This document shows positions 43,940 through 59,679 of a DNA stretch of 64,000 nucleotides, in pieces (the stretch's first letter is position 1; each line of letters starts with the position of its first letter). Both the position numbers and the translations under genes were made by a program. The notes beneath the pieces are model-generated. The model was not told the origin of the DNA, did no database searches, and worked only from the letters and a program-made list of their open reading frames with translations. Source of the DNA: Streptomyces sp. Go-475 (GTDB lineage Bacteria > Actinomycetota > Actinomycetes > Streptomycetales > Streptomycetaceae); NCBI RefSeq assembly GCF_003330845.1, contig NZ_CP026121.1, positions 6,987,501-7,051,500 on the forward strand, in the 5' to 3' direction.

Positions 43940-44090
43940 GCGTTCTCCCTTCGACGCCCTCGCACCCTCCTCGCGCCCGACGGCGGACGCAACTCCTTTT
44001 CGGCACTGTGCATGCTGTTCCTGGTGTCTCCGCTCTCCCTGTGGCTACTCGCGCCGTCAGGCAAGTGACAGCGAGTGGAGGGAGAGCCTC

Positions 44091-45053
44091 GTGGGCGGAC
44101 AAGCCTGGCGCCGGGCCCTGGTGACCGGTGGCGCCGGATTCGTGGGGTCCCATCTGTGCGCGCGGCTGCTCGACGCCGGCACGCACGTGGTGTGCCTGGA
44201 CAACCTGGCCACCGGCTCCCGCGCCAACGTGGCCGAGTTGGAGCAGCGGCCCGGCTTCCGTTTCGTGCCCGGCGACGCCACCGACCCGGCGGTCTGGCGG
44301 GCCCTGCCCGGCCGGTACGACCTCGTGCTGCACTTCGCCTGCCCCGCCTCGCCGGCCGACTACCTGCGGCTGCCGCTGGAGACCCTCGACGTCGGCAGCA
44401 CGGGCACCCGCCTCGCGCTGGACCGGGCCCGCGCCGACGGCGCCCGCCTCGTCCTCGCCTCCACCTCCGAGGTCTACGGCGACCCGCTGGAGCACCCGCA
44501 GCACGAGGGCTACTGGGGCAACGTCAACCCGGTCGGCCCGCGCAGCGTCTACGACGAGTCCAAGCGCTTCGCGGAGGCCCTGGTCACCGCCCACCGCGGC
44601 GTGCACGGCACCGACGCCGCCATCGTCCGCATCTTCAACACCTACGGGCCCCGCATGCGCACCGGCGACGGCCGCGCCGTCCCCACCTTCATCGCGCAGG
44701 CCCTCGACGGCACGCCCCTGACCGTCGCCGGCGACGGCGGGCAGACCCGCTCCCTGTGCTACGTCGACGACACCGTGGCGGGCGTGCTCGCCCTGGCCGC
44801 CTCCGCCGAGACCGGGCCGGTGAACATCGGCGGCGGCGACGAGATCACCGTGCTGGAGCTGGCCCGCCGGATCGTCGGGCTCACCGGCTCCGCCTCCCGC
44901 GTCCGGTTCGTGGACCGCCCCGTCGACGACCCCGGCCGGCGCCGCCCCGACACCCGGCTGGCCCGGGAACGGCTCGGCTGGCACCCCCGGATCGGCTGGA
45001 GCGAAGGACTGGAACGCACCATTGGCTGGTTCTCGCGGTCCGTCGCCGCCTGA
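44091..45053 (+). CDS. UDP-glucuronate decarboxylase-like NAD-dependent epimerase/dehydratase
   Basis: 320 residues of the extended SDR class. NAD motif TGGAGFVGSH (about 12-21), FACPASPADYLRLPLETLDV, STSEVYGDPLEHPQHEGYWG and YDESKRFAEAL (Tyr/Lys pair) closely follow UDP-xylose synthase, as does RIFNTYGPRM. It probably makes UDP-xylose from UDP-glucuronate at the head of the glycan cluster; a 4-epimerase or HldD role is less likely from these motifs. GTG 44091 has GGAGGGAG upstream. Confidence 0.8.
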   Translation: MGGQAWRRALVTGGAGFVGSHLCARLLDAGTHVVCLDNLATGSRANVAELEQRPGFRFVPGDATDPAVWRALPGRYDLVLHFACPASPADYLRLPLETLDVGSTGTRLALDRARADGARLVLASTSEVYGDPLEHPQHEGYWGNVNPVGPRSVYDESKRFAEALVTAHRGVHGTDAAIVRIFNTYGPRMRTGDGRAVPTFIAQALDGTPLTVAGDGGQTRSLCYVDDTVAGVLALAASAETGPVNIGGGDEITVLELARRIVGLTGSASRVRFVDRPVDDPGRRRPDTRLARERLGWHPRIGWSEGLERTIGWFSRSVAA

Positions 45054-45109
45054 GGCGGTCACAGAGCGGTCATCCCCGCCCGACAGAAAGTGAAAAATCC
45101 GGCTTTGTG

Positions 45110-45138
45110 GTGACAGTTGGCTCCAAGTGTTTGAGATA
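45110..45138 (+). promoter_or_regulatory. Possible promoter of the glycan operon
   Basis: The gap 45054-45201 contains a noticeably AT-richer stretch. GTGACA (45110-45115) with a 17-base spacer to GAGATA (45133-45138) is the best candidate, though the -10 is poor. The carbamoyltransferase starts 64 bases on. Confidence 0.25.
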
Positions 45139-45201
45139 GCTGCACCGCGGCACTCGCCAGCACCGTAGTCCTCACAGCCGTCGGGACGGAGCACAGCCCC
45201 C

Positions 45202-46860
45202 ATGCGCATCCTCGGTATCAACGCCCTGTTCCACGACCCGGCCGCCGCTCTCGTCATCGACGGCCGCACGGTGGCGGCCGCCGAGGAGGAGCGCTTCAGC
45301 CGCCGCAAGCACGGCAAGCGCCCGCTGCCGTTCTCCGCGTGGGAGCTGCCCGAGCTGTCCGCCCGCTGGTGTCTGGAGCACGCGGGCCTCAGGCCCGAGG
45401 ACCTGGACGCCGTCACCTACTCCTTCGACCCGGCGCTCGCCCGGCCCGCCCGCGACATGGGCCTGGACGACCCCTGGGACCCGCTGCGGCTGGAGTACGC
45501 CCGCCGCGCCCCCGAGTTCCTCGCCGAGGCCCTGCCCGGCCTCGACCCCGAACGGGTCGTCTTCGTCCCCCACCACGTCGCCCACGCCGCCTCCGCCGGG
45601 CCCGCCTCACCCCACCCCGACAGCGCCGTCCTCGTCCTCGACGGCCGCGGCGAGGCCGCCTCCCACCTGGCCGGCCGTTACCACGACGGCACGCTCGACA
45701 CCCTCGCCACCCAGGCCCTGCCCGACTCCCTCGGCCTGGTCTACGAGGAGCTCACCGCCCACCTCGGCTTCCTGCGCAGCAGCGACGAGTACAAGGTGAT
45801 GGCCCTCGCCTCCTACGGCACCCCGCGCTTCCTGCCCGGGCTGCGCCAGTACGTCCACCCCACCGGCCACGGCGGCTTCCGCGCCCACGGCGTCGACTGG
45901 GCGTCCTTCGCCCCGCCCCGCGCCCCGGGCGAGGCCTGGACGCAGGACCACGCCGACCTCGCCGCCAGCACCCAGGCCGTCCTGGAGGAGGTCCTGCTGG
46001 AACTCGTCGACTGGCTGCACCGCGAGGCCGGCGGCGAGGCACTGGCGATGGCCGGGGGCGTCGCCCTCAACTGCGTCGCCAACTCCAGGATCGCCGCCAA
46101 GGGCCCCTACCGCGACGTCTGGGTGCAGCCCGCCGCCGGGGACGCCGGCACCGCCCTCGGCGGAGCCCTGCACCTCGCCGCCACGCGGACCGGGCGGCCC
46201 GACCCCATGCCCGGCGCCGACCTCGGCCGCGGCTGGAGCGACGACGAACTGCGCGCCCGGCTCGACACCGCCGCCGTCCCGTACGAGAAGCCCGACGACA
46301 TCGCCGAGACCGTCGCCGAGGTACTGGCCGAGGACGGCGTCGTCGCCTGGTTCCAGGGCCGCAGCGAGTACGGCCCGCGCGCCCTCGGCCACCGCTCCCT
46401 GCTCGCCCACCCCGGCCGCGCCGAGAACCTCGAACGCCTCAACCACGTCAAGGGACGCGAGGAGTTCCGGCCCGTCGCCCCCATGGTCCTGGCCGACCGC
46501 GCCGCCGACCTGTTCTCCGGCGGCCCGATCCCCAGCCCGTACATGCTCTTCGTGCACGACGTCGCCGAACGGTGGCGCGAGCGCATACCGGCCGTCGTGC
46601 ACGTCGACGGCACCGCCCGCATCCAGACCGTCGAGGAACGACGGGAACCCCTCGTGGCACGGATGCTGCGCGCCTTCGAACGGCGCACCGGACTGCCCGT
46701 CGTCGTCAACACCAGCCTCAACACCGCCGGCCGGCCCATGGTCGACGACCCGCGCGACGCCCTGGAGTGCTTCGGGTCCGCGCCCGTCGACCTGCTGGCC
46801 ATCGGGCCCTACGCGGTCCGCCGCGGCCGCGCGTTCGACGGAGGGAGGACCGCCGCATGA
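45202..46860 (+). CDS. NodU/CmcH-family O-carbamoyltransferase
   Basis: 552 residues. The N-terminal Kae1-like domain has LGINALFHDPAAALVIDGRT and the metal-binding VPHHVAHAASA near residue 117; ALAMAGGVALNCVANSRIAA follows. The C-terminal domain has WFQGRSEYGPRALGHRSLLA, KGREEFRPVAPMVL and VVNTSLNTAGRPMVDDP. The family transfers carbamoyl from carbamoyl phosphate through carbamoyl-AMP to a sugar hydroxyl. In this cluster a glycan sugar, possibly the heptose, is the likely acceptor. Its stop overlaps the next ATG. Confidence 0.88.
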   Translation: MRILGINALFHDPAAALVIDGRTVAAAEEERFSRRKHGKRPLPFSAWELPELSARWCLEHAGLRPEDLDAVTYSFDPALARPARDMGLDDPWDPLRLEYARRAPEFLAEALPGLDPERVVFVPHHVAHAASAGPASPHPDSAVLVLDGRGEAASHLAGRYHDGTLDTLATQALPDSLGLVYEELTAHLGFLRSSDEYKVMALASYGTPRFLPGLRQYVHPTGHGGFRAHGVDWASFAPPRAPGEAWTQDHADLAASTQAVLEEVLLELVDWLHREAGGEALAMAGGVALNCVANSRIAAKGPYRDVWVQPAAGDAGTALGGALHLAATRTGRPDPMPGADLGRGWSDDELRARLDTAAVPYEKPDDIAETVAEVLAEDGVVAWFQGRSEYGPRALGHRSLLAHPGRAENLERLNHVKGREEFRPVAPMVLADRAADLFSGGPIPSPYMLFVHDVAERWRERIPAVVHVDGTARIQTVEERREPLVARMLRAFERRTGLPVVVNTSLNTAGRPMVDDPRDALECFGSAPVDLLAIGPYAVRRGRAFDGGRTAA

Positions 46861-47855
46861 CCCCGTACGCCGTGGTGATCCCCACGCTCGTGCGGGACAC
46901 CCTCGCCGACTGCCTCGCGGCCCTCGCCGCCGCGACCGGGCCGCGCCCCGAGGAGATCGTCCTCGTCGACGACCGGCCCGACCCCGAACCCGGGAAGCTG
47001 GAGCACCCGTTGAGCGTCCTCGGCGATCTGCGGGAGCGCACCACCGTGCTGGGCGGCGGCGGTCGTGGGCCCGCCGCCGCCCGCAACACCGGGCTGCGGG
47101 CCGTGACCGCGCCGTGGACCGTGTTCCTCGACGACGACGTCCAGGTCGGGCCCCACTGGTGCGACCAACTGGCCGAGGACCTCGCCGAGGCGTCCCCCGA
47201 CATCGCGGGCGTCCAGGGCGTCATCGCCGTGCCCCTGCCCGGCGAACGCCGCCCCACCGACTGGGAACGCGGCACCGCCGGACTCGCCCGGGCCCACTGG
47301 ATCACCGCCGACATGGCCTACCGCACGGACGCCCTCAAACAGGTCGGCGGCTTCGACGAACGCTTCCGGCGGGCCTTCCGCGAGGACGCCGACCTCGCGC
47401 TGCGCGTCCTCGACGCGGGCTGGCGCATCCGCCAGGGCCGCCGCACCACCCGCCACCCCGTGCGCCCCGCCGACCGCTGGGTGTCCGTGCGTCAGCAGCG
47501 CGGCAACGCCGACGACGCCCTCATGCGGCACCTCCACGGACCCGACTGGTGGGACAAGGCGGTCGCGCCGCGCGGCCGGATCCGCAAGCACGCCGCGATC
47601 ACCACAGCGGGCGTCGCCGCGTGCGCCCTCGCCGCCACCGGTCACGCCCGTGCCGCCACGGCCTGCGCGCTCGGCTGGGCCGCCGGCACCGCCGAGTTCG
47701 CCCGGGCCCGCATCGCACCCGGCCCCCGCACCCGCCGCGAGGTGACGACCATGCTCGCGACCAGCGTGCTCATCCCACCCGCCGCGACCTGGCACCGGCT
47801 GACCGGCGAATGGCGCCACCGCCACGCCCACGCCTGGCAGGAGGAGACCCGATGA
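46857..47855 (+). CDS. Family 2 glycosyltransferase
   Basis: 332 residues with a GT-A fold: YAVVIPTLVRDTLADCLAAL, EEIVLVDDRP, GPAAARNTGLRAVTAPWTVF, then the metal-binding LDDDVQVGP near residue 98. GGFDERFRRAFREDADLALR carries the acceptor-binding ED. The C-terminal 90 residues contain a hydrophobic stretch that may lie on the membrane. It overlaps its neighbours by 4 bases on both sides, within the heptose operon. The donor is unknown. Confidence 0.85.
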   Translation: MTPYAVVIPTLVRDTLADCLAALAAATGPRPEEIVLVDDRPDPEPGKLEHPLSVLGDLRERTTVLGGGGRGPAAARNTGLRAVTAPWTVFLDDDVQVGPHWCDQLAEDLAEASPDIAGVQGVIAVPLPGERRPTDWERGTAGLARAHWITADMAYRTDALKQVGGFDERFRRAFREDADLALRVLDAGWRIRQGRRTTRHPVRPADRWVSVRQQRGNADDALMRHLHGPDWWDKAVAPRGRIRKHAAITTAGVAACALAATGHARAATACALGWAAGTAEFARARIAPGPRTRREVTTMLATSVLIPPAATWHRLTGEWRHRHAHAWQEETR

Positions 47856-48451
47856 GCCCGGTCAAGGCCGTGCTGTTCGACCGCGACGGCACCCTCGTCG
47901 AAGACGTCCCCTACAACGCCGACCCCGACCGCGTACGCCCGGTCGACGGCGCCCGCGAGGCCCTCGCCCTGCTGCGCGAACGCGGCATCCGCACCGGCGT
48001 CGTCACCAACCAGTCCGGCGTCGCACGCGGCCTGCTCGCCGACGCCGACGTGCGGCACGTCAACCACCGCGTCGACGAATTCCTCGGCCCCTTCGACGTG
48101 TTCGCCGTCTGCCCGCACGGCCCCGACGACGGCTGCCACTGCCGCAAACCCCAGCCCGGCATGGTGCTGTGGGCGGCCGGACGGATCTGCACCGCACCTG
48201 CCGACCTCGTCGTCATCGGCGACATCGGCGCCGACGTGGAGGCCGCCCGCCGGGCCGGCGCCCACGGCATCCTCGTCCCCACCGCGCAGACCCGCCCCGA
48301 GGAGACCGCGGCGGCCGACCACGTCGCCCCCGACCTGCTCACCGCCGTCCGCGCGGTGCTGGACGGACCGCCGCGGGGCCGCGTCCTCGCCGACGAACGC
48401 CCCATCCAGGAGGCCTTCACCACCGGCCCCGGACCGGGGAGGTGCCGGTGA
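47852..48451 (+). CDS. gmhB: D-glycero-D-manno-heptose 1,7-bisphosphate 7-phosphatase-like HAD phosphatase
   Basis: 199 residues of the HAD-IIIA histidinol-phosphatase/GmhB group. Nucleophile and acid are Asp10 and Asp12 in LFDRDGTLVED; motif II is VTNQSG; the zinc loop CPHGPDDGCHCRKPQPGM is diagnostic for GmhB; motif IV is VIGDIGADVEAARRAGA. It removes the 7-phosphate from heptose 1,7-bisphosphate. The usual metal-site GD(S/K) of motif IV reads GDIGAD. About 25 extra residues lie at the C-terminus. It is coupled to both neighbours by 4-base overlaps. Confidence 0.85.
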   Translation: MSPVKAVLFDRDGTLVEDVPYNADPDRVRPVDGAREALALLRERGIRTGVVTNQSGVARGLLADADVRHVNHRVDEFLGPFDVFAVCPHGPDDGCHCRKPQPGMVLWAAGRICTAPADLVVIGDIGADVEAARRAGAHGILVPTAQTRPEETAAADHVAPDLLTAVRAVLDGPPRGRVLADERPIQEAFTTGPGPGRCR

Positions 48452-49437
48452 AGGCCCTCGTCACCCGCCTCGACAGCTTCGGCGACGTCCTGCTCGCCGG
48501 ACCCGCGATCCGCGCGGTCGCCGCCCGCGCCGACACCGTCACCCTGCTGTGCGGACCGCGCGGCGCCCCCGCCGCCCGGCTGCTGCCCGGCGTCGACGAC
48601 ATCCTCGTCTGGGACGCCCCCTGGGTGGGCTTCGATCCCCCGCCCGTCGGCCGCGGCGAGGTCGAGCAGCTCATCGACACCATCGACGCCGACACCGCGC
48701 TGATCCTCACCTCCTTCCACCAGTCCCCGCTGCCCGCCGCCCTGCTGCTGCGCCTGGCCGGCGTCGGCCACATCGCCGCCGACAGCGAGGACTACCCCGG
48801 CTCCCTCCTCGACGTACGCCACCACCGAGCCCCGCACGCCCACGAGGCCGAGGCCGCCCTCGACCTCGCCGAGGCCGCCGGATTCCCGCCCGCCGGCGAC
48901 CCCCGGCTCCGGGTGCTGCCGCCGCCCGCCACCGCCGGACTCACCGGCCCGGGACCGTACGTCGTCCTGCACCCCGGCGCCAGCGTCCCCGCCCGCGCCT
49001 GGAGCCCCGAGCGCTGTGCCGAGGCGGTGCGCGAACTGTCCGCCGCCGGGCACCGCGTGGTGGTGACCGGCAGCGCGGGGGAGAGGGACCTGACCGCGTA
49101 CGTCGCGGGCGAGCACGCCCTCGACCTCGGCGGCCGCACCGGCGCGGCCGAACTCTCCGGCGTCCTCGCGGGCGCCGACGCCGTCGTCACCGGCAACACC
49201 GGGCCCGCCCACCTCGCCGCCGCGGTCGGCACCCCGGTCGTGTCCCTGTTCGCGCCGGTCGTGCCCGCCGAACGCTGGCGGCCGTACGGCGTGCCGTACG
49301 TGCTGCTCGGCGACCAGGACGCGCCGTGCGCGGACAGCAGGGCCAGGGAGTGCCCCGTGCCCGGCCACCCCTGCCTGGACACCGTCACCGCGCACGACGT
49401 GGTGACCGCCGTCGAGAAGCTGCGGGGGGAGGCATGA
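48448..49437 (+). CDS. Family 9 glycosyltransferase (heptosyltransferase type)
   Basis: 329 residues with a GT-B fold. The acceptor domain opens VTRLDSFGDVLLAGPAIRAV, the family pattern of LPS heptosyltransferases (R-x-x-x-x-GD-x-L). The donor domain has VVLHPGASVPARAWSPERCA and GNTGPAHLAAAVGTPVVSLF, the nucleotide-heptose site. GTG 48448 overlaps the previous stop and has GGGAGG 5 bases before. With gmhA, gmhB and hldE adjacent, ADP-heptose is the probable donor. Confidence 0.85.
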   Translation: MKALVTRLDSFGDVLLAGPAIRAVAARADTVTLLCGPRGAPAARLLPGVDDILVWDAPWVGFDPPPVGRGEVEQLIDTIDADTALILTSFHQSPLPAALLLRLAGVGHIAADSEDYPGSLLDVRHHRAPHAHEAEAALDLAEAAGFPPAGDPRLRVLPPPATAGLTGPGPYVVLHPGASVPARAWSPERCAEAVRELSAAGHRVVVTGSAGERDLTAYVAGEHALDLGGRTGAAELSGVLAGADAVVTGNTGPAHLAAAVGTPVVSLFAPVVPAERWRPYGVPYVLLGDQDAPCADSRARECPVPGHPCLDTVTAHDVVTAVEKLRGEA

Positions 49438-50390
49438 GGATCCTGCTCTGGCACGTGCACGGGTCGTGGACCACGGCCTTCGTGCAGGGCCCGCACACCT
49501 ACGTCGTCCCCGTCACCCCCGACCGCGGACCCGACGGCCTCGGCCGCGCCCGCACCTGGGACTGGCCCGACTCCGTCGTCGAAGTACCGCCCGAGCGGCT
49601 GCGCGAGGAGCACATCGACGCCGTCGTGCTGCAGCGCCCGCACGAACTCGCCCTGGTCGACCGGTGGCTGGGCCGCCGCCCGCCGCTGGTGTACCTGGAG
49701 CACAACGCCCCGCACGGCTCCCCGGGGGTACCCGACACCCGCCACCCCGCCGCCGACATCCCCGGCGCCACCCTCGTCCACGTCACGCACTTCAACCGGC
49801 TGATGTGGGACGCCGGTTCGACGCCCAGCACCGTCATCGAGCACGGCATCGTCGACCCCGGCCCGCTGTGGACCGGGGAGCTGGAACGCGCCGCCGTCGC
49901 CGTCAACGAGCCCCTGCGGCGCGGCCGCACCACCGGCACCGACCTGCTGCCGGCCTTCGCCGAGGCCGCCCCGCTGGACGTCTTCGGCATGGGCACCGAG
50001 GGTCTCGCGGACCGGCTCGGCATCCCCGCCGACCGCTGCCGCGGCCACGAACTCACCCAGGCCGAGCTGCACACGGCGATGGCCCGCCGCCGCGTCTACG
50101 TCCACCCGGTGCGCTGGACCTCCCTCGGCCTGTCCCTGCTGGAGGCGATGCACCTGGGCATGCCCGTGGTCGCGCTCGCCACCACCGAGGTCACCGAGGC
50201 CGTACCGGCCGGCGCCGGAGTGGTCTCCAACCGCATCGAGGAACTGACCGACGCCGTACGGGACTTCCTCGCCGACCCGCTGCACGCGCGGATGGTCGGC
50301 GAGGGCGCGCGGGCGGCGGCGCTCGCCCGCTACGGGCTGTCCCGCTTCCTGGACGACTGGGAGCGGCTGCTGAAGGAGGTGGCCCGATGA
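49434..50390 (+). CDS. Glycosyltransferase, family 4-like
   Basis: 318 residues. The N-terminal half is unusual and short (MRILLWHVHGSWTTAFVQGP and LVYLEHNAPHGSPGVPDTRH). The C-terminal half has GT-B donor features: THFNRLMWDAGSTPSTVIEH, IPADRCRGHELTQAELHTAM, YVHPVRWTSLGLSLLEAMHL and GMPVVALATTEVTEAV, the E-x(7)-E-like region of GT4 retaining enzymes. The donor sugar is not evident. It has 4-base overlaps with both neighbours. Confidence 0.78.
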   Translation: MRILLWHVHGSWTTAFVQGPHTYVVPVTPDRGPDGLGRARTWDWPDSVVEVPPERLREEHIDAVVLQRPHELALVDRWLGRRPPLVYLEHNAPHGSPGVPDTRHPAADIPGATLVHVTHFNRLMWDAGSTPSTVIEHGIVDPGPLWTGELERAAVAVNEPLRRGRTTGTDLLPAFAEAAPLDVFGMGTEGLADRLGIPADRCRGHELTQAELHTAMARRRVYVHPVRWTSLGLSLLEAMHLGMPVVALATTEVTEAVPAGAGVVSNRIEELTDAVRDFLADPLHARMVGEGARAAALARYGLSRFLDDWERLLKEVAR

Positions 50391-51604
50391 GGATCGCCAT
50401 GGTCTCCGAGCACGCGAGCCCGCTCGCCGCGCTCGGCGGCGTCGACGCCGGCGGCCAGAACGTGTACGTGGCCCGCCTGAGCGAGGAACTGGCCCGCCGC
50501 GGCCACGACGTCACCGTCTACACCCGCCGTGACGCGGCCGACCTGCCCGACCGGGTGCCCCTGCCCGGCGGCGCCGTCGTCGAGCACGTGCCGGCCGGAC
50601 CGGCCGCCCCCGTACCCAAGGACGAACTGTTCCCGCACATGCCGGCCTTCGGCGCCTGGCTGGCCCGGGCCTGGGCCCGCGAGCGGCCGGACGTGGTGCA
50701 CGCCCACTTCTGGATGTCCGGCATGGCCTCCCGCATCGGCGCCCACCCGCACGGCGTGCCCGTCGTGCAGACCTTCCACGCCCTGGGCACCGTCAAGCGC
50801 CGCCACCAGGGCCGGCGCGACACCAGCCCGCCCGAACGGATCGGCATCGAGCGGCAGATCGGCCGCGGCTGCGCCCGCGTCCTGGCCACCTGCGGCGACG
50901 AGGTGCACGAACTGGCCGAGATGGGCGTGCCGCGCTCCCGGGTGTCGGTGGTGCCCTGCGGGGTGGACGCGGACCAGTTCCGGCCCGGGGTCCCGCCCGA
51001 CGGCGTCCCGGCCCGCCGGCGGCCGCACCGGCTCCTCGCCTGCGGCCGGCTCGTCCCGCGCAAGGGCTACGACCAGGCCGTACGGGCCCTCGCCCGCGTC
51101 CCCGACGCCGAACTCCTCATCGCGGGCGGCCCCGCGGCCGGCCTGCTGGACGACGACCCGGAGGCCCGGCGGCTGCGCCGCCTCGCGGAACGCACCGGCG
51201 TCGCCGACCGGGTGCGGCTGCTCGGCGCGGTCGACCCGGCCGCCATGCCCGCCCTCATCGGCAGCGCCGACCTGGTGCTGTGCACCCCCGTCTACGAGCC
51301 GTTCGGGATCGTGCCGCTGGAGGCCATGGCCTGCGGCGTGCCCGTCGTCGCCACCGACGTCGGCGGCCACCGCGACAGCGTCGCCGACGGCACCACGGGC
51401 CGGCTCGTCCTGCCGCAGGATCCCGAGGCGGTCGCGGCCGCCGTACGCGAACTCCTCACCGACGACGCCCTCTGCCGCCGCTACGGCAGCGCCGGCCGCG
51501 CACGCGTCCTCACCCACTACACCTGGCGGCGCGTCGCCGACGGAGTCGAGCAGGTCCACCGCCAGGTCCTCGCCGGACACGCACAGCAGAAGGAGGTGGC
51601 GTGA
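50387..51604 (+). CDS. Family 4 glycosyltransferase
   Basis: 405 residues with the complete GT4 layout seen in MshA and sucrose-phosphate-synthase-type enzymes. The N-terminal domain has MVSEHASPLAALGGVDAGGQ, YVARLSEELARRGHDVTVYT and DVVHAHFWMSGMA. The C-terminal domain has VVPCGVDADQF, ACGRLVPRKGYDQAVRALAR and CTPVYEPFGIVPLEAMACGV, with the catalytic E-x7-E. The acceptor is unknown; neighbours indicate glycan assembly rather than mycothiol synthesis. One-base overlap (TGATG) with the isomerase gene. Confidence 0.88.
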   Translation: MRIAMVSEHASPLAALGGVDAGGQNVYVARLSEELARRGHDVTVYTRRDAADLPDRVPLPGGAVVEHVPAGPAAPVPKDELFPHMPAFGAWLARAWARERPDVVHAHFWMSGMASRIGAHPHGVPVVQTFHALGTVKRRHQGRRDTSPPERIGIERQIGRGCARVLATCGDEVHELAEMGVPRSRVSVVPCGVDADQFRPGVPPDGVPARRRPHRLLACGRLVPRKGYDQAVRALARVPDAELLIAGGPAAGLLDDDPEARRLRRLAERTGVADRVRLLGAVDPAAMPALIGSADLVLCTPVYEPFGIVPLEAMACGVPVVATDVGGHRDSVADGTTGRLVLPQDPEAVAAAVRELLTDDALCRRYGSAGRARVLTHYTWRRVADGVEQVHRQVLAGHAQQKEVA

Positions 51605-52206
51605 TGACCGTACACCCGCCCGTCACCGGGCACTGCGACGAACTCCAGGACGCCCTGACCGCGTTCCGCGCCTCGGCGCACATCACCGAGCGGTGGGGTG
51701 AGCGCCTGGCGGACGTCCTCACCGGCGGCGGCCGGCTGCTCGCCGCGGGCAACGGCGGCAGCGCGGCCCAGGCCCAGCACCTGACCGCCGAACTCGTCGG
51801 CCGCTACCGCGACGACCGGCCGCCGTTCTCCGCGCTGGCCCTGCACGCCGACACCTCCAGCACCACCGCGATCGCCAACGACTACGGCGTGGACGAGGTG
51901 TTCGCCCGCCAGGTCCGCGCCCACGGCCGCCGCGGCGACGTCCTGATGCTGCTGTCCACCTCCGGCGCCAGCGCCAACCTGCTGTCCGCGGCGGACGCCG
52001 CCCGGGCGGCCGGGGTGCGCGTGTGGGCCCTCACCGGCTGCGCCCCCAACCCGCTGATGGCGGGCAGCGACGAGTACCTGTGCGTCGAGGCGCCGACGGC
52101 GGCGACCGTGCAGGAACTGCACCTGGTCGCGGTGCACATGGTGTGCGCGGCGTTCGACGCGGCGGTGGAACGCGGTGGCCGGCGCGACGGCGACGGCGGG
52201 AGGTGA
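51604..52206 (+). CDS. gmhA: Phosphoheptose (sedoheptulose 7-phosphate) isomerase
   Basis: 200 residues of the SIS-domain GmhA family. GGRLLAAGNGGSAAQAQHLT and AELVGRYRDDRPP (about 40-73), ATAIANDYG-like TTAIANDYGVDEVFARQVRA, LLSTSGASANLL and the closing AATVQELHLVAVHMVCAAFD with active-site Glu/His match GmhA. It converts sedoheptulose 7-phosphate to heptose 7-phosphate, the first heptose step. The next gene starts one base after its stop. Confidence 0.9.
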   Translation: MTVHPPVTGHCDELQDALTAFRASAHITERWGERLADVLTGGGRLLAAGNGGSAAQAQHLTAELVGRYRDDRPPFSALALHADTSSTTAIANDYGVDEVFARQVRAHGRRGDVLMLLSTSGASANLLSAADAARAAGVRVWALTGCAPNPLMAGSDEYLCVEAPTAATVQELHLVAVHMVCAAFDAAVERGGRRDGDGGR

Positions 52207-52207
52207 C

Positions 52208-53572
52208 ATGAGCGGCAAGGCACCCCTGGTCGTCGTCGGTGACGCCCTGCTGGACCGGGACCTGACCGGCCGCGCCGAACGGCTCGCGCCCGACGCGCCC
52301 GTGCCGGTCGTCGACGACTGCGGGGAGCGGACCCGGCCCGGCGGCGCCGCCCTCGCCGCGTACCTCGCGGCCCGCGACGGCCGGGACGTCACGCTGGTGG
52401 CGGGCGTCGGCGACGACCCCGCGAGCCGCGAACTGCGCCGCCTCCTGGAACCCTGGCTCACCCTGATCCCGCTGCCCCTGACCGGACCCCTTCCCGAGAA
52501 GACCCGGGTCCTCGCGCAGGACCGCCCGGTGGTCCGCCTGGACCGGGGAGCCGGCCGCACCCGCGAGGCCACGGACACCGCCCGCGAGGCCGTCCGCTCC
52601 GCGCCCGCCGTGCTCGTCTCCGACTACGGCCGCGGCGCCGCCGACGCCCTGCGCGACGACCTCGCCGCCCGCCCGCCCCTGGTCTGGGACCCGCACCCGC
52701 GCGGCGGCCCGCCCGTGCCGGGCACCCGGCTGGTCACCCCGGCGGAGAAGGAGGCCCACGGCCTCGCCCCGCAGGACGGCACACCGCGCCGGGACCTGCG
52801 CGCCGCCGCGCACAGCGCCGCCGCCCTCGTAGGGCACTGGCGGGCCGCGGCCGTCGCGGTGACCCTCGGCGCACGCGGCGCCCTCCTCTCCTACGGCGAG
52901 CACCCGCTGCTCGTCCCCGCCCCCGCCGCGCACCCGGGCGACAGCTGCGGGGCCGGCGACCGGTTCGCCGCCACGGCGGCCGGGCTGCTCGCCGACGGCG
53001 TCCTGACCGCCGAGGCCGTCGAGGGCGCCGTGGCCGCCGCGACCGGCTTCGTCGCGGCGGGCGGCGCGGCGGCGCTGCCGAGCGCGGACACCCCGCCGGT
53101 ACTCCCGCCCGACGAGGACGACCCGAGCGCCCTGGCCGCCCGGGTCCGCGCCGCGCACGGCACGGTCGTCGCCGCCGGCGGCTGCTTCGACCTGCTGCAC
53201 GCCGGCCACGTCGGCCTGCTCCAGGCCGCCCGGCGGCTCGGCGACTGCCTCGTCGTCTGCGTCAACTCCGACGCCTCGGTGCGGCGCCGCAAGGGCGGCG
53301 GCCGCCCGGTGAACCCGCTCACCGACCGGCTCCGGGTCCTGCGCGCCCTGGCCTGCGTCGACGCGGTCGCCGTCTTCGACGAGGACACCCCCGAACGGCT
53401 CCTGGCCGACCTGCGTCCCGACGTCTGGGTCAAGGGCGGTGACTACGCGGCCGCCGACCTCCCCGAAGCCGCCCTCCTCCAGGAGTGGGGCGGCCAGGCG
53501 GTCCTGCTGCCCTACCTCGACGGCCGCTCCTCGACGGCCCTGCTGGAAAGGGCGGCGGAGGGAGCGCGGTGA
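52208..53572 (+). CDS. hldE: Bifunctional heptose 7-phosphate kinase / heptose 1-phosphate adenylyltransferase
   Basis: 454 residues. The N-terminal PfkB kinase domain (about 1-310) has VVVGDALLDRDLTGRAERLA, ACSDYGRG-like VLVSDYGRGAADAL and the anion-hole SCGAGDRFAATAAGLL. The C-terminal nucleotidyltransferase (about 320-450) has VVAAGGCFDLLHAGHVGLLQ with HxGH, and SDASVRRRKGGGRPVNPLTD. This fusion makes ADP-D-glycero-beta-D-manno-heptose together with GmhA and GmhB. It is slightly shorter than E. coli HldE (477). No HldD epimerase is seen nearby. Confidence 0.9.
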   Translation: MSGKAPLVVVGDALLDRDLTGRAERLAPDAPVPVVDDCGERTRPGGAALAAYLAARDGRDVTLVAGVGDDPASRELRRLLEPWLTLIPLPLTGPLPEKTRVLAQDRPVVRLDRGAGRTREATDTAREAVRSAPAVLVSDYGRGAADALRDDLAARPPLVWDPHPRGGPPVPGTRLVTPAEKEAHGLAPQDGTPRRDLRAAAHSAAALVGHWRAAAVAVTLGARGALLSYGEHPLLVPAPAAHPGDSCGAGDRFAATAAGLLADGVLTAEAVEGAVAAATGFVAAGGAAALPSADTPPVLPPDEDDPSALAARVRAAHGTVVAAGGCFDLLHAGHVGLLQAARRLGDCLVVCVNSDASVRRRKGGGRPVNPLTDRLRVLRALACVDAVAVFDEDTPERLLADLRPDVWVKGGDYAAADLPEAALLQEWGGQAVLLPYLDGRSSTALLERAAEGAR

Positions 53573-54855
53573 CCGGCGGCACGAGGAGGCCAGGACACCC
53601 GATGGGACCGGCCACGGCGGCGGACGCGCAGGGCGCGGGGGAGGCTGCTGCCATGGCACCGGACAGCACACCGAGCACGCCACCGAACCCGGCACCGCCC
53701 CCGCGCCCGGCGGCGACGCGGGGTGCGCAGCCGGGCACGGGCGTGGCGTCGGACGCGGCGGCCGGCATGACGTCGGGCGCGGCGCGGGGCACAGCACCGG
53801 CCACGGCGCCGGGCACGGGCCCGGTCACGGCGCGCGCCACAGCACCGGCCCCGGCCCGGGGCACAGGCCCGTTCACGGCCCCGGACGTGCCCCCGGAGGG
53901 CAACCCCCGCCCCCGCCTCCTCGTCCTGCGCGCCCTCGGCCTCGGTGACCTGCTCGCCGGTGTCCCTGCCCTGCGCGCCCTGCGGCGGGCCTACCCGGGG
54001 CATGAGATCGTGCTGGCCACGCCCGCCGAACTGGAGCCCGTCGCCGCGGTGACGGGGGCCGTGGACCGGCTGCTGCCCGCCGCCGCGCCGGGGCGGGCCG
54101 TGCCGCGGTCGCTCGACTGGACCGGACCGCCGCCGGACGTCGCCGTCGACCTGCACGGCAACGGCCCGCCCAGCCACCGGCTGCTCATGGACCTGCGCCC
54201 GCTGAAGCTGCTCGCCTTCGCCCACCCGGACACCCCGGAGGTCGACGGCCCGCCCTGGTACGCGGAGGAACACGAACGCGACCGCTGGTGCCGCCTGCTC
54301 CAGGCGTACGGCATCGACGCCGACCCCGGCGACCTGCTCCTGCCCCGACCGCGCACCGCCTCCCCGGCCCCCGGCGCGGCCGTCCTGCACCCCGGCGCGG
54401 GGTCCCCGGCCCGCTGCTGGCCCGTCGAGCGCTACGCGGACGTCGCGGTCGCGCTGCGCGCCCGGGGCCTGCGCGTCGTGGTGACCGGCGGCGCCGACGA
54501 GGGCGACCTCGTGGCCCGGCTCGCCAAGCGGGCCGGCCTGCCCGACACCGACGTGTTCGGCGGCGGCCTCCCCTTCGGCCGGCTGGCCGCGCTCGTCGCC
54601 GACGCCCACGTCGTGATCAGCGGCGACACCGGCATCGCCCACCTGGCGGTCGCCCACGCCACGCGCTCCGTCACCCTCTTCGGCCCGGTCGCACCCAGCC
54701 GCTGGGGCCCACCGCCCGGCCCGCGCCACCGCGCGCTGTGGTACGGCCCGGAGGGTGACCCGCACGGCCGCCGCCCCGACCCCGCGCTGCTGCGCATCAC
54801 CCCCGACGACGTCCTGCGCGCCGTCGACGAACTGCCCGGCATCCGACACCCGTGA
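53569..54855 (+). CDS. Family 9 glycosyltransferase with low-complexity N-terminal extension
   Basis: From residue about 110 this is a second heptosyltransferase-type enzyme: RLLVLRALGLGDLLAGVPAL, HEIVLATPAELEPVAAVTGA, VAVDLHGNGPPSHRLLMDLR, VLHPGAGSPARCWPVERYAD and ISGDTGIAHLAVAHATRSVT. The first about 108 residues are Ala/Thr/Pro/Gly repeats (GTAPATAPGTGPVTARATAP) absent from normal family members. GTG 53569 overlaps the hldE stop and has GGAGGGAG in front, so the extension is probably translated; ATGs at 53602 and 53653 are alternatives. Confidence 0.82.
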   Translation: MTGGTRRPGHPMGPATAADAQGAGEAAAMAPDSTPSTPPNPAPPPRPAATRGAQPGTGVASDAAAGMTSGAARGTAPATAPGTGPVTARATAPAPARGTGPFTAPDVPPEGNPRPRLLVLRALGLGDLLAGVPALRALRRAYPGHEIVLATPAELEPVAAVTGAVDRLLPAAAPGRAVPRSLDWTGPPPDVAVDLHGNGPPSHRLLMDLRPLKLLAFAHPDTPEVDGPPWYAEEHERDRWCRLLQAYGIDADPGDLLLPRPRTASPAPGAAVLHPGAGSPARCWPVERYADVAVALRARGLRVVVTGGADEGDLVARLAKRAGLPDTDVFGGGLPFGRLAALVADAHVVISGDTGIAHLAVAHATRSVTLFGPVAPSRWGPPPGPRHRALWYGPEGDPHGRRPDPALLRITPDDVLRAVDELPGIRHP

Positions 54856-54871
54856 GGGGGCACCCCGCACG

Positions 54872-55762
54872 ATGACCACGATGACCGTCCCGAACCCGGA
54901 CCCGAGCCCCGTCGGCGTCGTCATCGCCACCCGCAACCGCTCCGCCGCACTCGCCGGAGCCCTGCGGCACCTCCACAACCTGCCCGAGCGGCCCGAGATC
55001 CTCGTCGCCGACAACGCCTCCACCGACGACACGCGCGCCATGCTCGCCCGCGACTTCCCCCGGGTCCGCGTCCTGGCGCTGCCGTTCAACCACGGCGCCC
55101 TCGCCCGCACCTACGGGGCCCGGGCCCTGGACACCCCGTACGTGGCGTTCAGCGACGACGACTCCTGGTGGGCACCCGGCGCCCTGGACACGGCGGCCCG
55201 CCTGTTCGAGGCCCACCCGCGGCTCGGCCTCATCTCCGCCCGCACCCTGGTCGGCCCCACCGCGGACCCGGACCCGCTCAACGAGGTGCTCGCGGACTCG
55301 CCGCTCGGCCGGGTCGGCGACCTGCCCGGCACCCAAGTGCTGGGCTTCCTCGCCTGCGCCTGTGTCGTCCGCCGCAGCGCCTACCTCGACGCGGGCGGCT
55401 TCCACCGGCTGCTGTTCTTCGGCGGCGAGGAGACCCTCCTCGCCTACGACCTGGCCGCCCGCGGCTGGGGCGTCACCCACTGCCCGGACGTCATCGCCCA
55501 CCACCACCCGGCGTCCGCGCCGCGCACCGGCCGCAGCGCCGTCCAGCGCCGCAACGAACTCCTCACCGCCTGGCTGCGCCGCCCCGTGCCCTACGCGCTG
55601 GCCCGCACCCGCGCCCTGGCCGCCGAGGCCCGGCACGACGGCCACGCCCGGCGCGCCCTGCGCGGGACACTGGCCCGGCTGCCCGCCGCCCTGCGCGCAC
55701 GCCGGCCCCTGCCCCCGCACGTGGAACGGGCCGCGCGCCTGCTGGAGGGAGCGTCCACGTGA
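54872..55762 (+). CDS. Family 2 glycosyltransferase
   Basis: 296 residues: VGVVIATRNRSAALAGALRH, ILVADNASTDDTRAMLARDF, FNHGALARTYGARALDTPYV, the metal site FSDDDSWWAPGALD, a second domain with GFLACACVVRRSAYLDAGGF, FFGGEETLLAYDLAARGWGV and the histidine run IAHHHPAS. It is a close tandem paralogue of the next gene, sharing the SDDDSWWAPG core. The donor is unknown. AGGGGG lies 11 bases or so before the ATG. Confidence 0.85.
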   Translation: MTTMTVPNPDPSPVGVVIATRNRSAALAGALRHLHNLPERPEILVADNASTDDTRAMLARDFPRVRVLALPFNHGALARTYGARALDTPYVAFSDDDSWWAPGALDTAARLFEAHPRLGLISARTLVGPTADPDPLNEVLADSPLGRVGDLPGTQVLGFLACACVVRRSAYLDAGGFHRLLFFGGEETLLAYDLAARGWGVTHCPDVIAHHHPASAPRTGRSAVQRRNELLTAWLRRPVPYALARTRALAAEARHDGHARRALRGTLARLPAALRARRPLPPHVERAARLLEGAST

Positions 55763-56655
55763 CCGACCGCCGTACCACCGTCGTCGTCATCACCCACAAC
55801 CGGCGCCGGGAACTCCTGCGCACCCTCGACCGCCTGGCCGAACTGCCCGAGGACCCGCCGGTGATCGTCACCGACAACGGCTCCACCGACGGCACCGCCG
55901 AGGCCGTCGCCCGCCACCATCCGCGGGTCCGGCTGCTGCGGCCCGGCCGCAACCTCGGCGCCGTCGGCCGCAACCTGGCGATCCGGCAGGTCGGCACGCC
56001 CTACATCGCCTTCTGCGACGACGACTCCTGGTGGGCGCCCGGATCGCTGACCGGGGCCGCCGACCTGCTGGACCGGCATCCCGCGCTGGGCTCGGTCACG
56101 GCCCGGATCGTCGTCGAACCCGACGGCACCGACGACCCGATCGTCGAGGAACTGCGCAACTCGCCCGTGCCCGGGCCGGATTGGCTGCCGGGACCGGCCC
56201 TGGGCTCGTTCCTGGCGGCGGCGACCGTGCTGCGCACCGACGCCTTCCGGGCCGCGGGCGGCTTCCATCCCCGGCTGTGGCTCGGCGGCGAGGAGGAACT
56301 GCTCGCCGCTGACCTCGCGGCCGACGGCTGGTGGCTGACGTACGCCGACCACCTGGCGGTGCACCACCACCCGTCCGTCGCCCGGGACGCCACCCTGCGC
56401 CGGACCCACGGCATCCGCAACACCCTGTGGTTCACCTGGCTGCGCCGCCCGGCCGGTCCCGCGCTGCGCCGGACCGTGGACCTGGCCCGCACGGTCCCGC
56501 GCGACACCGCGTCCCTGCGCGCCTTCGCCGAGGCGGCGGCCGCCCTCCCCTGGGTGCTGCGCGAACGCCGGGTCCTCCCGCACCGGGTGGAGTCCCGGCT
56601 GCGCCTGCTCGAACCGGCCCAGCGGGCCTCGAAGGCCCGCCGCTACACCGGCTGA
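55759..56655 (+). CDS. Family 2 glycosyltransferase, tandem paralogue
   Basis: 298 residues aligning along their length with the gene before: VVVITHNRRRELLRTLDRLA, VIVTDNGSTDGTAEAVARHH, CDDDSWWAPGSLTGAADLLD, AATVLRTDAFRAAGGFHPRL, WLGGEEELLAADLAADGWWL and AVHHHPSVARDA. GTG 55759 overlaps the previous stop by 4 bases with GGAGGGAG upstream. It is the last gene of the glycan operon; the next genes are on the other strand. Confidence 0.85.
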   Translation: MTDRRTTVVVITHNRRRELLRTLDRLAELPEDPPVIVTDNGSTDGTAEAVARHHPRVRLLRPGRNLGAVGRNLAIRQVGTPYIAFCDDDSWWAPGSLTGAADLLDRHPALGSVTARIVVEPDGTDDPIVEELRNSPVPGPDWLPGPALGSFLAAATVLRTDAFRAAGGFHPRLWLGGEEELLAADLAADGWWLTYADHLAVHHHPSVARDATLRRTHGIRNTLWFTWLRRPAGPALRRTVDLARTVPRDTASLRAFAEAAAALPWVLRERRVLPHRVESRLRLLEPAQRASKARRYTG

Positions 56656-57078: not shown

Positions 57079-57987
57079 CTAACCGGGGACGGGCCGCGCC
57101 AGCGCCTCCACGAGCCGGTCCGCGCTGTCCGGCACGGTCCCCTCGCGGAACCCGTCGCGGATCTGCCGGGCGGTCACCCGGCCGCCGGTCAGGCACCAGT
57201 CCCACCAGCGGTCCAACTGCCGCACGTCCAGCCGCTCGGCGGGCACCAGCGCGGGCCAGCCGCAGGCGCGGGCCTGCGCGGTCATCTTCGCGCCGCCCTC
57301 GACGGGGTCGACAGCCAGCACCGGGGTGCCGACCCGCAGCGCGATCACCAGCCCGTGCAGCCGGTCGGTGACGACGAGGTCCAGCCGGGCCAGCACGGAC
57401 TGCAACTGCGCGGGCGTGGCGCTCAGATGCCAGTCGTGGGTGTCGAGCCGCGTCTCCAGTTCCAGCCGGGCGCAGTCCTTCCCGGCCAGCCAGCGCGTCA
57501 CCTCCTCGGCGACCTGCCCGTGCCGCCGCAGCGTGCCGTACTCCTCCTGCCCGTGCGTGAGGATCACCCCGACGACCGGCCGGGCGGGCACCTCGGGGGC
57601 GCGGGCCGCCAGGTCCTCCACCGGCTCGCTGTCCGGCGCGTCCCGGGGCAGCACCCGGTGGAAGCCGGTCACGGCCGCGCTGGCGGGGTCGATCACCGAG
57701 GTGCCGACGGCGATCCGCACGCAGTGCGCGAACCGCCGGTGCAGCTCCTCGACCTGCGGCCCGTGCAGCGGGCCGCACACGAACACCAGGTGGGAGTAGT
57801 CCTTCGGCCACAGCCGGTCCAGATGCAGCGCCTCCGGCCGGAAGCCGGGACTCCAGGCGATGTCGTAGGGGATGCCCGTCCCCCGCAGTACGTCCTCCAC
57901 CCGGCGCAGGGCGAGCACGTCCCCGGCGGTCGCCTCCCCGTCCCGGAAGCTGAACCACCCGGTCAGCAGCACCCTGCGCGGTCGCAT
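57079..57987 (-). CDS. Polysaccharide pyruvyl transferase family protein
   Basis: 302 residues: VLLTGWFSFRDGEATAGDVL, SHLVFVCGPLHGPQVEELHR, VVGVILTHGQEEYGTLRRHG and the C-terminal signature VVTDRLHGLVIALRVGTPVL, AVDPVEGGAKM. The GT-B-like family includes CsaB and WcaK, which add pyruvyl ketals to glycans. Standing beside the glycan operon in the opposite direction, it may decorate the same polymer. ATG 57987 has GAGAGGGC just ahead; GTG 58005 or ATG 58032 are possible. Confidence 0.75.
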   Translation of the reverse strand: MRPRRVLLTGWFSFRDGEATAGDVLALRRVEDVLRGTGIPYDIAWSPGFRPEALHLDRLWPKDYSHLVFVCGPLHGPQVEELHRRFAHCVRIAVGTSVIDPASAAVTGFHRVLPRDAPDSEPVEDLAARAPEVPARPVVGVILTHGQEEYGTLRRHGQVAEEVTRWLAGKDCARLELETRLDTHDWHLSATPAQLQSVLARLDLVVTDRLHGLVIALRVGTPVLAVDPVEGGAKMTAQARACGWPALVPAERLDVRQLDRWWDWCLTGGRVTARQIRDGFREGTVPDSADRLVEALARPVPG

Positions 57988-58066
57988 GCCCTCTCGTGTC
58001 TGCACATGCCCTGAGTGCCCGCCCCCCGGCAAGACAATCAGGGCATTACGTGCATTTACTCTCCGG

Positions 58067-59509
58067 TCACTCGGCGTGGAAGGTGGCGTCCGCCCGGTCG
58101 GTGGCCGTGCTCACCGCCTGCACGTTCAGCAGGTACTCCCAGTGGCGGACGTATCGCCCGGGGTAGTTGTACGACTCGTACGACACCCCCGCGGAGTCGG
58201 CCAGCCCGGCGCGCCGGTGGAAGGTGGCGTCGGCCGCGAACTGCGCGCTGCCGTCGTTGCGCTCCAGCCACACCTCGTAGTTCTTGTGCCGCAGGTAGTA
58301 GCCGGGGAAGTTGGCCGACTCCAGCGAGACGGTGCCGCTGCCGGCGAGGCCGGGCACGACGCGGAACTGCGAGTCGGCGAGCTTGGTGACGTTCGCCTCG
58401 ATCCGGGCCCGGTAGTCCCAGTGGCGGATGTACCGGTCCGGGAAGTTGTACGAGGAGAAGCGCTGCGGGGTGACGCCGTCGGCGACCGGGATGCCGAAGT
58501 TCGGGGTGCCGTCGGCGTTCCAGTACACCTTCTGCACGCGGGTGCGGCGGTTGGGGTCGTTGAGCGGGTCGCCGCTGATGTCCTTGTAGCTGCGGTCGTG
58601 GTAGACGAGGATGTCGCTCTTGCCGTCCTCGGAGACGGTGAAGGAGTTGTGGCCCGGGCCGTACTGGCTGGTCGCGGCGCTGCTGGCGAAGACCGGAGTG
58701 GCGCTCTTGCTCCAGGAGGCCTGGCTGAGCAGGTTCGCGCCGGCGGAGGCGGTGAGCATGCCCAGGCAGTAGTTGCTGTCGGTGGCGCTCGCGGAGTACG
58801 TCATGAACACCTTGCCGCCGCGCTGGATGACGGCCGGGCCCTCGTTGACCTTGTAGCCGACGGTCTCCCAGGAGTAGGTGGGCCGCGACAGCATCACCGG
58901 GGTGCCGGTGATCGTCCAGGGGTTGGCCATCCTCGCCAGGTAGATGTCCGTGTTGTTGTTCACGGACGGGTCGCGCTGCGCCCAGGCCAGGTAGCGCACG
59001 CCGTTCACGACGAACGTGGTGGCGTCCAGGGAGAAGCTCTCCCACTGGGTCTTGATCTGCCCCTTCTCCGTCCAGGTGGCGGTGAGCGGGTTGGCGCCGG
59101 TGCCCTCCAGGACGTACATCCGGATCGCCCAGATGTCGTTCGTGGCGCCGGCGGCGAAGTACACGTACCACTTGCCGTCGATGAAGTGGATCTCCGGCGC
59201 CCAGATGTGCGCCCCCATCACACCGCTGGCGTGCTTGGTCCAGATGGTGGTCTCGGGGGCCGTCCTCAGCCCTTGGACGGTGGTCGCCCGGCGCAGCACG
59301 ATGCGGTCGTACTCGGGGACGGTCGCGGTGAAGTAGTAGTAGCCGTCGGTGTGCTTGAAGATGTGCGGGTCGGCCCGCTTCTCCGCGATCGGGTTGGTGT
59401 ACGTGACGGCGGGGGAGTCGGGCACGGCGGCCTGCGCGGGCGCGCCCGCGAGGCAGGTCGCCAGGGCGACCAGGGCGGCCATGAGGAGCCGTACGGCAGT
59501 GCGTCTCAA
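58067..59509 (-). CDS. Secreted GH43-family glycosidase with C-terminal AbfB (CBM42) domain
   Basis: 480 residues. Signal peptide LRRTAVRLLMAALVALATCL, cleavage after APAQA near 27. The GH43 five-blade propeller follows, with the catalytic base Asp47 in KRADPHIFK, VMGAHIWAPEIHFIDGKWYV, and the general acid Glu in VNEGPAVIQ. The C-terminal 150 residues carry three beta-trefoil repeats: YNFPDRYIRHWDYRARI, ANFPGYYLRHKNYEVWL and YNYPGRYVRHWEYLLNV, typical of arabinose-binding AbfB. It is likely an extracellular arabinofuranosidase or xylosidase. TTG 59509 with GGAG 7 bases upstream fits the signal peptide; the open frame beyond it has none. Confidence 0.85.
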   Translation of the reverse strand: MRRTAVRLLMAALVALATCLAGAPAQAAVPDSPAVTYTNPIAEKRADPHIFKHTDGYYYFTATVPEYDRIVLRRATTVQGLRTAPETTIWTKHASGVMGAHIWAPEIHFIDGKWYVYFAAGATNDIWAIRMYVLEGTGANPLTATWTEKGQIKTQWESFSLDATTFVVNGVRYLAWAQRDPSVNNNTDIYLARMANPWTITGTPVMLSRPTYSWETVGYKVNEGPAVIQRGGKVFMTYSASATDSNYCLGMLTASAGANLLSQASWSKSATPVFASSAATSQYGPGHNSFTVSEDGKSDILVYHDRSYKDISGDPLNDPNRRTRVQKVYWNADGTPNFGIPVADGVTPQRFSSYNFPDRYIRHWDYRARIEANVTKLADSQFRVVPGLAGSGTVSLESANFPGYYLRHKNYEVWLERNDGSAQFAADATFHRRAGLADSAGVSYESYNYPGRYVRHWEYLLNVQAVSTATDRADATFHAE

Positions 59510-59679
59510 GGGAGGTCTCCGGAGGGGATCAGGAGGTGGGGCGAGCCGCCTCTGTCCGTGATATCGAACGCAGTTCGTGAATTCGGCCATGAATTCGGTC
59601 AGAAGATAAGTGGGGCTCTTACCCTCGTCAACGGTTCGGACAGGCAGGGTGCGCGAGACGGCCGGGTCGCTCATCGACG

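Follow-up and report, generated by a model that had tools for sequence, protein, structure and literature searches.

The cwg operon of Streptomyces sp. Go-475: a predicted heptose-donor route among carbamoyl- and glycosyltransferase genes, and its relatives in other Actinomycetota

The stretch of DNA considered here, called the window, covers 64,000 nucleotides of Streptomyces sp. Go-475 (positions 6987501-7051500 of the complete 8.57 Mb genome). Positions 44091-56655 of the window carry twelve genes, all on the plus strand, according to open reading frame (ORF) calls and Pfam matches. Judged from its sequence, this block is the orthologue of the Streptomyces cwg operon (SCO6179-SCO6190, cwgA-L), an identity that a preliminary description of the window had missed. 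The Pfam families run in the order SDR epimerase, Carbam_trans N and C, GT2, HAD of the GmhB type, GT9, GT4 and GT4 (genes A-G), followed by SIS_2 (GmhA), PfkB with CTP_transf_like (HldE), GT9, GT2 and GT2 (genes H-L). The preliminary description had listed the same enzymes, in a mostly overlapping operon with a pyruvyltransferase next door, and the ORFs and Pfam bear this out (Table 1). Starts and junctions were assigned computationally and then by eye. Nine of the eleven junctions overlap with the first assignment of starts, and eight do so if cwgI, cwgJ and cwgL start at 52208, 53569 and 55759; the junctions without overlap are then A/B (148 bp), H/I (1 bp) and J/K (16 bp). The N-terminus of CwgJ is of low complexity. 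Rfam gave nothing above its gathering scores.

The S. coelicolor operon consists of twelve genes assigned tentatively to a cell wall glycan, and the available part of its description annotates eight of them: cwgB, C, E, G and J as transferases, cwgD as a 'dehydratase', cwgH as a phosphoheptose isomerase and cwgI as a bifunctional synthase/transferase (PMC5839063). An excerpt of another paper gives cwgE as a heptosyltransferase-like gene (PMC5882110). The comparison with S. coelicolor was made through these eight annotations, with S. violaceoruber (locus L059) as a stand-in for strain A3(2). The gene order in the window agrees with all eight (B-E and G-J), of which D, H and I are the diagnostic positions. 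A HAD protein of the GmhB type can presumably bear the name of the dehydratase half of HisB, and hence fits the 'dehydratase' label of cwgD.

Conservation was followed in 80 named loci, all of them from Streptomyces, which are the best 80 of 304 by HldE similarity and are biased to close kin. Gene order was counted in the 66 loci of at least 15.5 kb, the 14 shorter ones being left out. Genes A-I keep their order on a single strand in every one of the 66, and all twelve genes do so in 55; in the other 11, at least one of J, K and L has no in-order match. The pyruvyltransferase gene follows the cluster, on the minus strand, in 36 of these loci. Across 121 genomes of the genus, HldE (CwgI) has a match in 46 and CwgF in 43, with 40 genomes having both, 6 cwgI only, 3 cwgF only and 72 neither (Fisher p 5e-22, uncorrected for kinship). 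The gene set is conserved far beyond chance.

Table 1. Features of the cwg block, its surroundings and related loci. Positions are those of the window unless a locus (L) is named.
Feature	Position or loci	Strand	Basis or remark
Upstream region of cwgA	43940..44090	+	
cwgA: UDP-glucuronate decarboxylase (UDP-xylose synthase) type SDR	44091..45053	+	Pfam, PDB relatives
cwgB: O-carbamoyltransferase, NodU/TobZ/GdmN type	45202..46860	+	Pfam, PDB relatives
cwgC: GT2 glycosyltransferase	46857..47855	+	Pfam
cwgD: GmhB-type heptose 1,7-bisphosphate phosphatase (HAD)	47852..48451	+	Pfam, NCBIfam, PDB alignment
cwgE: GT9, heptosyltransferase-like	48448..49437	+	
cwgF: GT4 glycosyltransferase	49434..50390	+	Pfam
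cwgG: GT4	50387..51604	+	Pfam, NCBIfam, nearest solved relatives
cwgH: GmhA-type sedoheptulose 7-phosphate isomerase	51604..52206	+	Pfam, zinc-ligand alignment
cwgI: HldE-type heptose kinase + nucleotidyltransferase	52208..53572	+	Pfam, NCBIfam; alternative GTG start 52175
cwgJ: second GT9, heptosyltransferase-like	53569..54855	+	Start uncertain, 53569 to 53887
cwgK: GT2 glycosyltransferase	54872..55762	+	Pfam
cwgL: GT2 glycosyltransferase, cross-matches cwgK	55759..56655	+	Pfam
Polysaccharide pyruvyltransferase, neighbour	57079..58032	-	Pfam
Second cwg-like block of Go-475	L114 12462-19901 + L115 to ~2335		A-I in order, 60-77% identity
MFS permease (MFS_1/MFS_3)	L114:11169-12401	Opposite to HldE	25 bp away
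GT2-GmhB fusion loci	L171, L172, L173, L175, L176, L178, L179, L182, L185-L190		

The S. coelicolor operon is induced by vancomycin and other cell-wall antibiotics; the accessible part of one study records it as partly sigma-E dependent and vancomycin-induced (PMC6767563). The published 29-mer of the cwg promoter recurs with at most one mismatch upstream of the same genes in two relatives (L043 and L053), and within 8 mismatches of 29 in 21 of 70 upstream regions, that of the window included in the 70. Its presence in front of the same genes in relatives strengthens the identification as cwg. Among 350 shuffles, 303 lay at 13-15 mismatches and one reached 8, so that the two loci at 8 mismatches are borderline. 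The matched stretch apparently runs into the start of a divergent polysaccharide deacetylase gene in several relatives, and its conservation may be partly coding. The deacetylase is presumably of the SCO6178 type; 24 of the 80 named loci have it, at a distance of 108 to 519 bp upstream of cwgA (Pfam on two), and it was not found in the window. A strict sigma-E pattern was set aside, as it matched 4 of 71 upstream regions, no more than shuffles did (176 of 3550); a looser pattern and mismatch counts for the 29-mer were used instead. Separately, GTGTATAC-like motifs stand between cwgA and the upstream gene in L034, L037, L042, L048, L109 and others, and are degenerate or missing in the window.

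That the twelve genes would supply the synthesis of a nucleoside diphosphate (NDP)-D,D-heptose donor is well supported. In CwgH the zinc ligands of N. gonorrhoeae GmhA (H61, E65, Q175 and H183) are aligned and conserved in the alignment to 5i01, and H, E, Q and H are the zinc ligands described for GmhA (PMC5387315). The score of CwgH with the NCBIfam GmhA model is 152.4 (cut-off 209.45). The best PDB relative of CwgD is the GmhB 4pnh, with the DRDG motif and the CxH...CxC loop aligned; the NCBIfam GmhB model gives 117.8 (cut-off 178). The roles of these motifs, and of the carbamoyltransferase motifs of CwgB, are taken here as presumed. The C-terminal nucleotidyltransferase domain of CwgI exceeds its equivalog-domain cut-off (TIGR02199, 189.7 vs 181.5), and the kinase half exceeds the Pfam cut-off for PfkB and scores 112.9 vs 345 with TIGR02198.

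The donor need not carry ADP. The C-terminal domain of CwgI has the motif YLDGRSST with Arg at position 5, and an Arg in this HldE motif is said to allow the synthesis of CDP- and UDP-heptose (PMC11461863); the nucleotide is therefore not necessarily ADP only. Thus, of the ADP-heptose route in the preliminary description, the heptose donor is supported, but the restriction to ADP is unneeded. The epimerase HldD, reported there as missing, has no match above the curated cut-off of 274.6 bits even in the complete genome, where the best of 14 SDR matches reaches 110.5 bits. For this reason D-glycero-D-manno-heptose is expected, and no L,D form. The genes of a heptose route in a Gram-positive organism are real, but they are not new: they belong to the described cwg operon, and heptose-donor synthesis outside Gram-negatives has been published for septacidin in Streptomyces (PMC11461863).

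It might be argued that the HldE-like protein, the carbamoyltransferase and the GT9 enzymes handle hexoses, and that no heptose is made. Bleomycin biosynthesis is the model for this: in the part of the source available, BlmC, BlmG, BlmE and BlmD provide for the synthesis and attachment of gulose and carbamoylated mannose, which pairs a sugar synthase with a carbamoyltransferase and a sugar transferase (PMC7017467). A comparable set occurs in the Streptomyces locus L138, which has nonribosomal peptide synthetase (NRPS) domains, a GT9, a carbamoyltransferase, an HldE-like protein and an Asp hydroxylase. However, the cwg block has GmhA and GmhB, neither of which has a match in L138, and the zinc ligands of its GmhA are intact. 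Furthermore, in the HldE tree (54 rows, midpoint root for drawing) a branch of 2.35 changes per site separates the HldE-like proteins of L138 and L139 from the remaining 52 rows. A hexose pathway is accordingly very unlikely. L138:2-11523 is itself a bleomycin-like cluster, in which pieces of NRPS occur with a nitroreductase-type domain.

The preliminary description had called CwgA UDP-xylose-synthase-like, and its best solved relatives are indeed UDP-glucuronate decarboxylases (UXS, 4gll/2b69, E 1.2e-86), with dehydratases following from 4e-37; TSEVYGDP, YxxxK and RRRPD are aligned with UXS1. Given eight genes of the UDP-sugar-dehydrogenase family above the cut-off elsewhere in the Go-475 genome, the predicted supply of UDP-xylose is shown at the level of sequence. 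In CwgB both Carbam_trans_N and Carbam_trans_C exceed their Pfam cut-offs, and the motifs are aligned with those of PDB 7xb6, GdmN and TobZ (E 1e-75 to 5e-88).

Among the glycosyltransferases (GTs), CwgE has a predicted fold closest to GT9 enzymes of the WaaF/WaaC type, and CwgJ is a GT9 by family match. Their specificity for a heptose donor is predicted, as a fold does not prove the donor. Enzymes of this kind could also act like the autotransporter heptosyltransferases (TibC), which use the D,D donor directly, and so place a heptose glycan on protein; this is regarded as highly improbable. The structure model of CwgF is of low confidence (mean predicted local distance difference test, pLDDT, 63.7) and too weak for searching. 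The highest values in a crude 19-residue hydropathy scan, 1.77 in CwgE and 1.76 in CwgJ, both lie inside the GT cores. CwgC was considered as a membrane-anchored enzyme and rejected by this crude test, its best value of 1.45 being below those of CwgE and CwgJ.

Beyond the genus, relatives of the operon are found in several actinobacterial classes. Of 396 genomes drawn from the phylum, 51 have an HldE match at E 1e-25 or better, 5 of them from the genus, 9 from the class and 37 from other classes. A first set of 20 loci of 20 kb was hand-chosen from the better matches (19 outside the genus and L183 from Streptomyces), and four better-scoring genomes were added (L195-L198, with L195 and L198 cut by contig ends). 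Genes B-J are all in order in 11 of the 23 loci outside the genus, nine from the first set plus L196 and L197, and B, C, D, E, G, H and I are present in 18; L177, L180 and L184 are without B and C, and L183 has H and I only. Three of the loci belong, by their protein names, to Rubrobacter taiwanensis, R. xylanophilus and R. calidifluminis. PPE-family matches exceed the cut-off in 5 of 12 genomes examined; four of these are from one genus (2 to 49 matches, strong) and are here called mycobacteria-like, and the fifth, with weaker matches, is from a sister genus.

The most distinctive trait of the cassette outside Streptomyces is a fusion. In the 19 loci of the first set, to which this and the following counts refer, cwgC and the GmhB gene (cwgD) form a single ORF in all 14 of the C ORFs called, compared with 0 of 86 in Streptomyces. 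Pfam confirmed GT2 and HAD in four of them (L172, L176, L182 and L188); in L174 and L181 the C ORF was uncalled though tblastn matches exist. The fusion ties the heptose supply to a GT. A search for it gave 7790 relatives among 7997 scored candidates, not all of which need be fusions; the 120 relatives listed all bear GT2 and HAD domains, and most of those that are named carry only the name histidinol-phosphate phosphatase family or HAD hydrolase.

The gene cwgA occurs in 5 of the 19 loci (L186-L190), and a nucleotide-sugar-dehydrogenase gene (UDP-glucose/GDP-mannose-dehydrogenase family) is close by in all five, as judged by Pfam on L190 and L186 and by NCBIfam TIGR03026 on L190 (405 vs 190 bits). 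The family was called in none of the 14 loci without cwgA. Beside cwgA, the dehydrogenase would complete the route from UDP-glucose through UDP-glucuronate to UDP-xylose. A short SDR that could modify the heptose or another sugar adjoins HldE in 14 of the 19 loci (e.g. L178:11289-11981 and L182:10850-11566). In L175 (Rubrobacter calidifluminis) and L171 the pyruvyltransferase gene adjoins the cassette and shares its strand. No recurring transporter family was seen in the loci outside the genus, where most neighbour families are unannotated. In the window the pyruvyltransferase is adjoined by a GH43 gene with an AbfB arabinose-binding domain (58067-59695), which has a cluster-side match in 6 of the 80 named loci.

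The Go-475 genome has a second cwg-like block near one chromosome end (~117458-127240); J, K and L have no counterpart in this block, except that cwgJ cross-matches its GT9. In the tree, the HldE of the second block belongs to a Streptomyces clade that is sister to the main cwg clade (supports 100/99 and 99/98). Cluster neighbours were compared on ORFs called with a codon model. Beside the second block lies an MFS permease of a family (64-95% identity) that accompanies cwg-type clusters in 22 of 104 Streptomyces loci, with varying orientation and position, and in 10 of the 14 loci of the second-copy clade. The family occurs in none of the 23 loci outside the genus and is absent at the window, the flanks being of limited extent in both cases. 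The permease is a candidate exporter for clusters of the second type. The absence of an exporter, flippase or polymerase from the cluster, stated in the preliminary description, agrees with Pfam, which found no transporter or polymerase family among the twelve proteins, and the permease recurs beside related clusters elsewhere.

These neighbours bear on the nature of the product. Instead of an envelope glycan, the operon could make a secreted or intracellular small molecule containing heptose. By Pfam, the twelve genes encode neither a lipid anchor nor a wall ligase, the permease is found beside 22 related loci including the second copy of Go-475, and the nearest solved relatives of CwgG are Tll1590 (6kih) and the MshA type (3c4q), both of which we take to act on soluble acceptors. 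Fusions of GmhA with HldE in L132 and L133, the latter perhaps a biosynthetic cluster, point the same way, as does the heptose antibiotic septacidin made by Streptomyces (PMC11461863). On the other hand, Pfam found no aglycone-building family among the twelve proteins, and the permease is missing at the window, its next best relative in the genome being 32% identical. An envelope part accords better with the gene order kept in other actinobacterial classes and with the place of the operon in the sigma-E envelope-stress regulon of S. coelicolor. A small-molecule product is therefore considered unlikely, less so than a hexose pathway. The L132 and L133 fusions (L132:8360-10393 and L133:8912-10876) each combine a SIS (GmhA-like), a kinase and a nucleotidyltransferase domain in one protein; that of L133 adjoins genes for an SDR epimerase, a GmhB-like protein, a carbamoyltransferase and an SHMT-like protein, and so may belong to a natural-product cluster for a heptose compound.

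The best reading is that the operon probably directs the cytosolic assembly of a carbamoylated, heptose-containing envelope oligosaccharide. CwgH, CwgI and CwgD would make NDP-D,D-heptose, and CwgA would convert UDP-glucuronate to UDP-xylose. The GT9 enzymes CwgE and CwgJ might then add one heptose each, and CwgC, F, G, K and L other sugars including xylose. CwgB would attach a carbamoyl group to the chain, perhaps at a heptose, as proposed for WapO, and in some species an acid group may come from the pyruvyltransferase next door. Assembly would take place on a carrier in the cytosol, with export by a transporter encoded elsewhere or, in related clusters, possibly by the adjacent MFS permease. 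The resulting glycan would be a short one in the envelope, of help to the cell when the envelope is stressed. The link to the envelope comes from the sigma-E regulon and the vancomycin induction in S. coelicolor.

Several observations weigh against an envelope glycan of this kind. Of the ten proteins scanned with NCBIfam, the C-terminal domain of HldE alone exceeds an equivalog-type cut-off, and GmhA, GmhB, the kinase half of HldE and both GT9 proteins are below their own. The published sigma-E site is not recognisable upstream of cwgA in the window, where the best stretch has 13 of 29 mismatches, the level of the shuffles; it is also missing in L059, and another sigma-E site may be present in the window. 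The occurrence of HldE in only 46 of 121 genomes of the genus suggests that the product is dispensable. The permease beside related clusters, being of the MFS type, fits a small soluble product equally, and both donor and acceptor of every cwg GT are predicted only. The Streptomyces wall polymers described in the available part of one source, a teichulosonic acid (Gal and Kdn) and a Gal-GlcNAc phosphate polymer, are without heptose or xylose (PMC11481543), and a 2008 survey, in the part available, confines L,D-heptose to Gram-negatives (PMC2543016). The product may be minor, stress-induced, lipid-linked or soluble.

It is possible, rather than probable, that cwg represents, in Streptomyces, a cassette widespread in the Actinomycetota whose product would be a monoderm 'inner-core-like' oligosaccharide. 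This would contain D,D-heptoses, a carbamoyl group and sometimes xylose and pyruvate, and would be anchored in the envelope in lineages ranging from Rubrobacter and the mycobacteria-like genomes to Streptomyces, GmhB being fused to a GT in those other than Streptomyces. In the open-access literature, as far as its accessible parts go, neither a chemical product of cwg nor the core beyond Streptomyces is described, and no report of heptose in actinobacterial walls was found; in the umbrella-toxin receptor paper the strings 'cwg' and 'hept' do not occur. Already known are the cwg operon and heptose donors outside Gram-negatives. New are the predicted B-J core in other classes of the phylum, with GmhB fused to the GT2 CwgC; the putative UDP-sugar dehydrogenase that accompanies the xylose-synthase gene in such clusters; the predicted pyruvyltransferase recurring next door; and the second A-I copy beside a putative MFS permease that recurs at 22 loci.

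The wider cassette makes the long-standing question of the cwg product testable. The conserved heptose, carbamoyl and GT9 core, together with the fusion and the dehydrogenase, points to the chemistry to look for: heptose, xylose, carbamate and pyruvate. If heptose were found, a sugar seen as a hallmark of Gram-negatives would join Gram-positive envelopes. The innate sensor ALPK1, moreover, is activated by NDP-heptoses (PMC11461863).

Like the S. coelicolor operon, as far as its annotations are available, the block in the window has twelve genes with the eight listed annotations in the same order; unlike it, the window lacks the published sigma-E promoter and the divergent deacetylase. With the bleomycin-type genes (blmC, D, E, F and G) cwg shares an HldE-like protein, a carbamoyltransferase and a GT9, which lie side by side in L138, whereas GmhA and GmhB are found in cwg alone of the two and its HldE falls in a separate clade. 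The Gram-negative ADP-heptose route (GmhA, HldE, GmhB and HldD with WaaC/WaaF) is resembled in the first-step enzymes and in two GT9 relatives, but the window genome has no HldD above the cut-off, most of the proteins are below equivalog cut-offs, and Streptomyces offers no outer-membrane context. In the Pseudomonas lipopolysaccharide (LPS) core, according to the portion of the source available, a putative carbamoyltransferase, WapO, and a carbamoylated Hep II occur with two heptosyltransferases (PMC8005017). The cwg operon likewise combines a putative carbamoyltransferase with two heptosyltransferase-like proteins; its host, however, lacks an outer membrane, the heptose expected is D,D and not L,D, and the operon has more GTs and a predicted UDP-xylose synthase.

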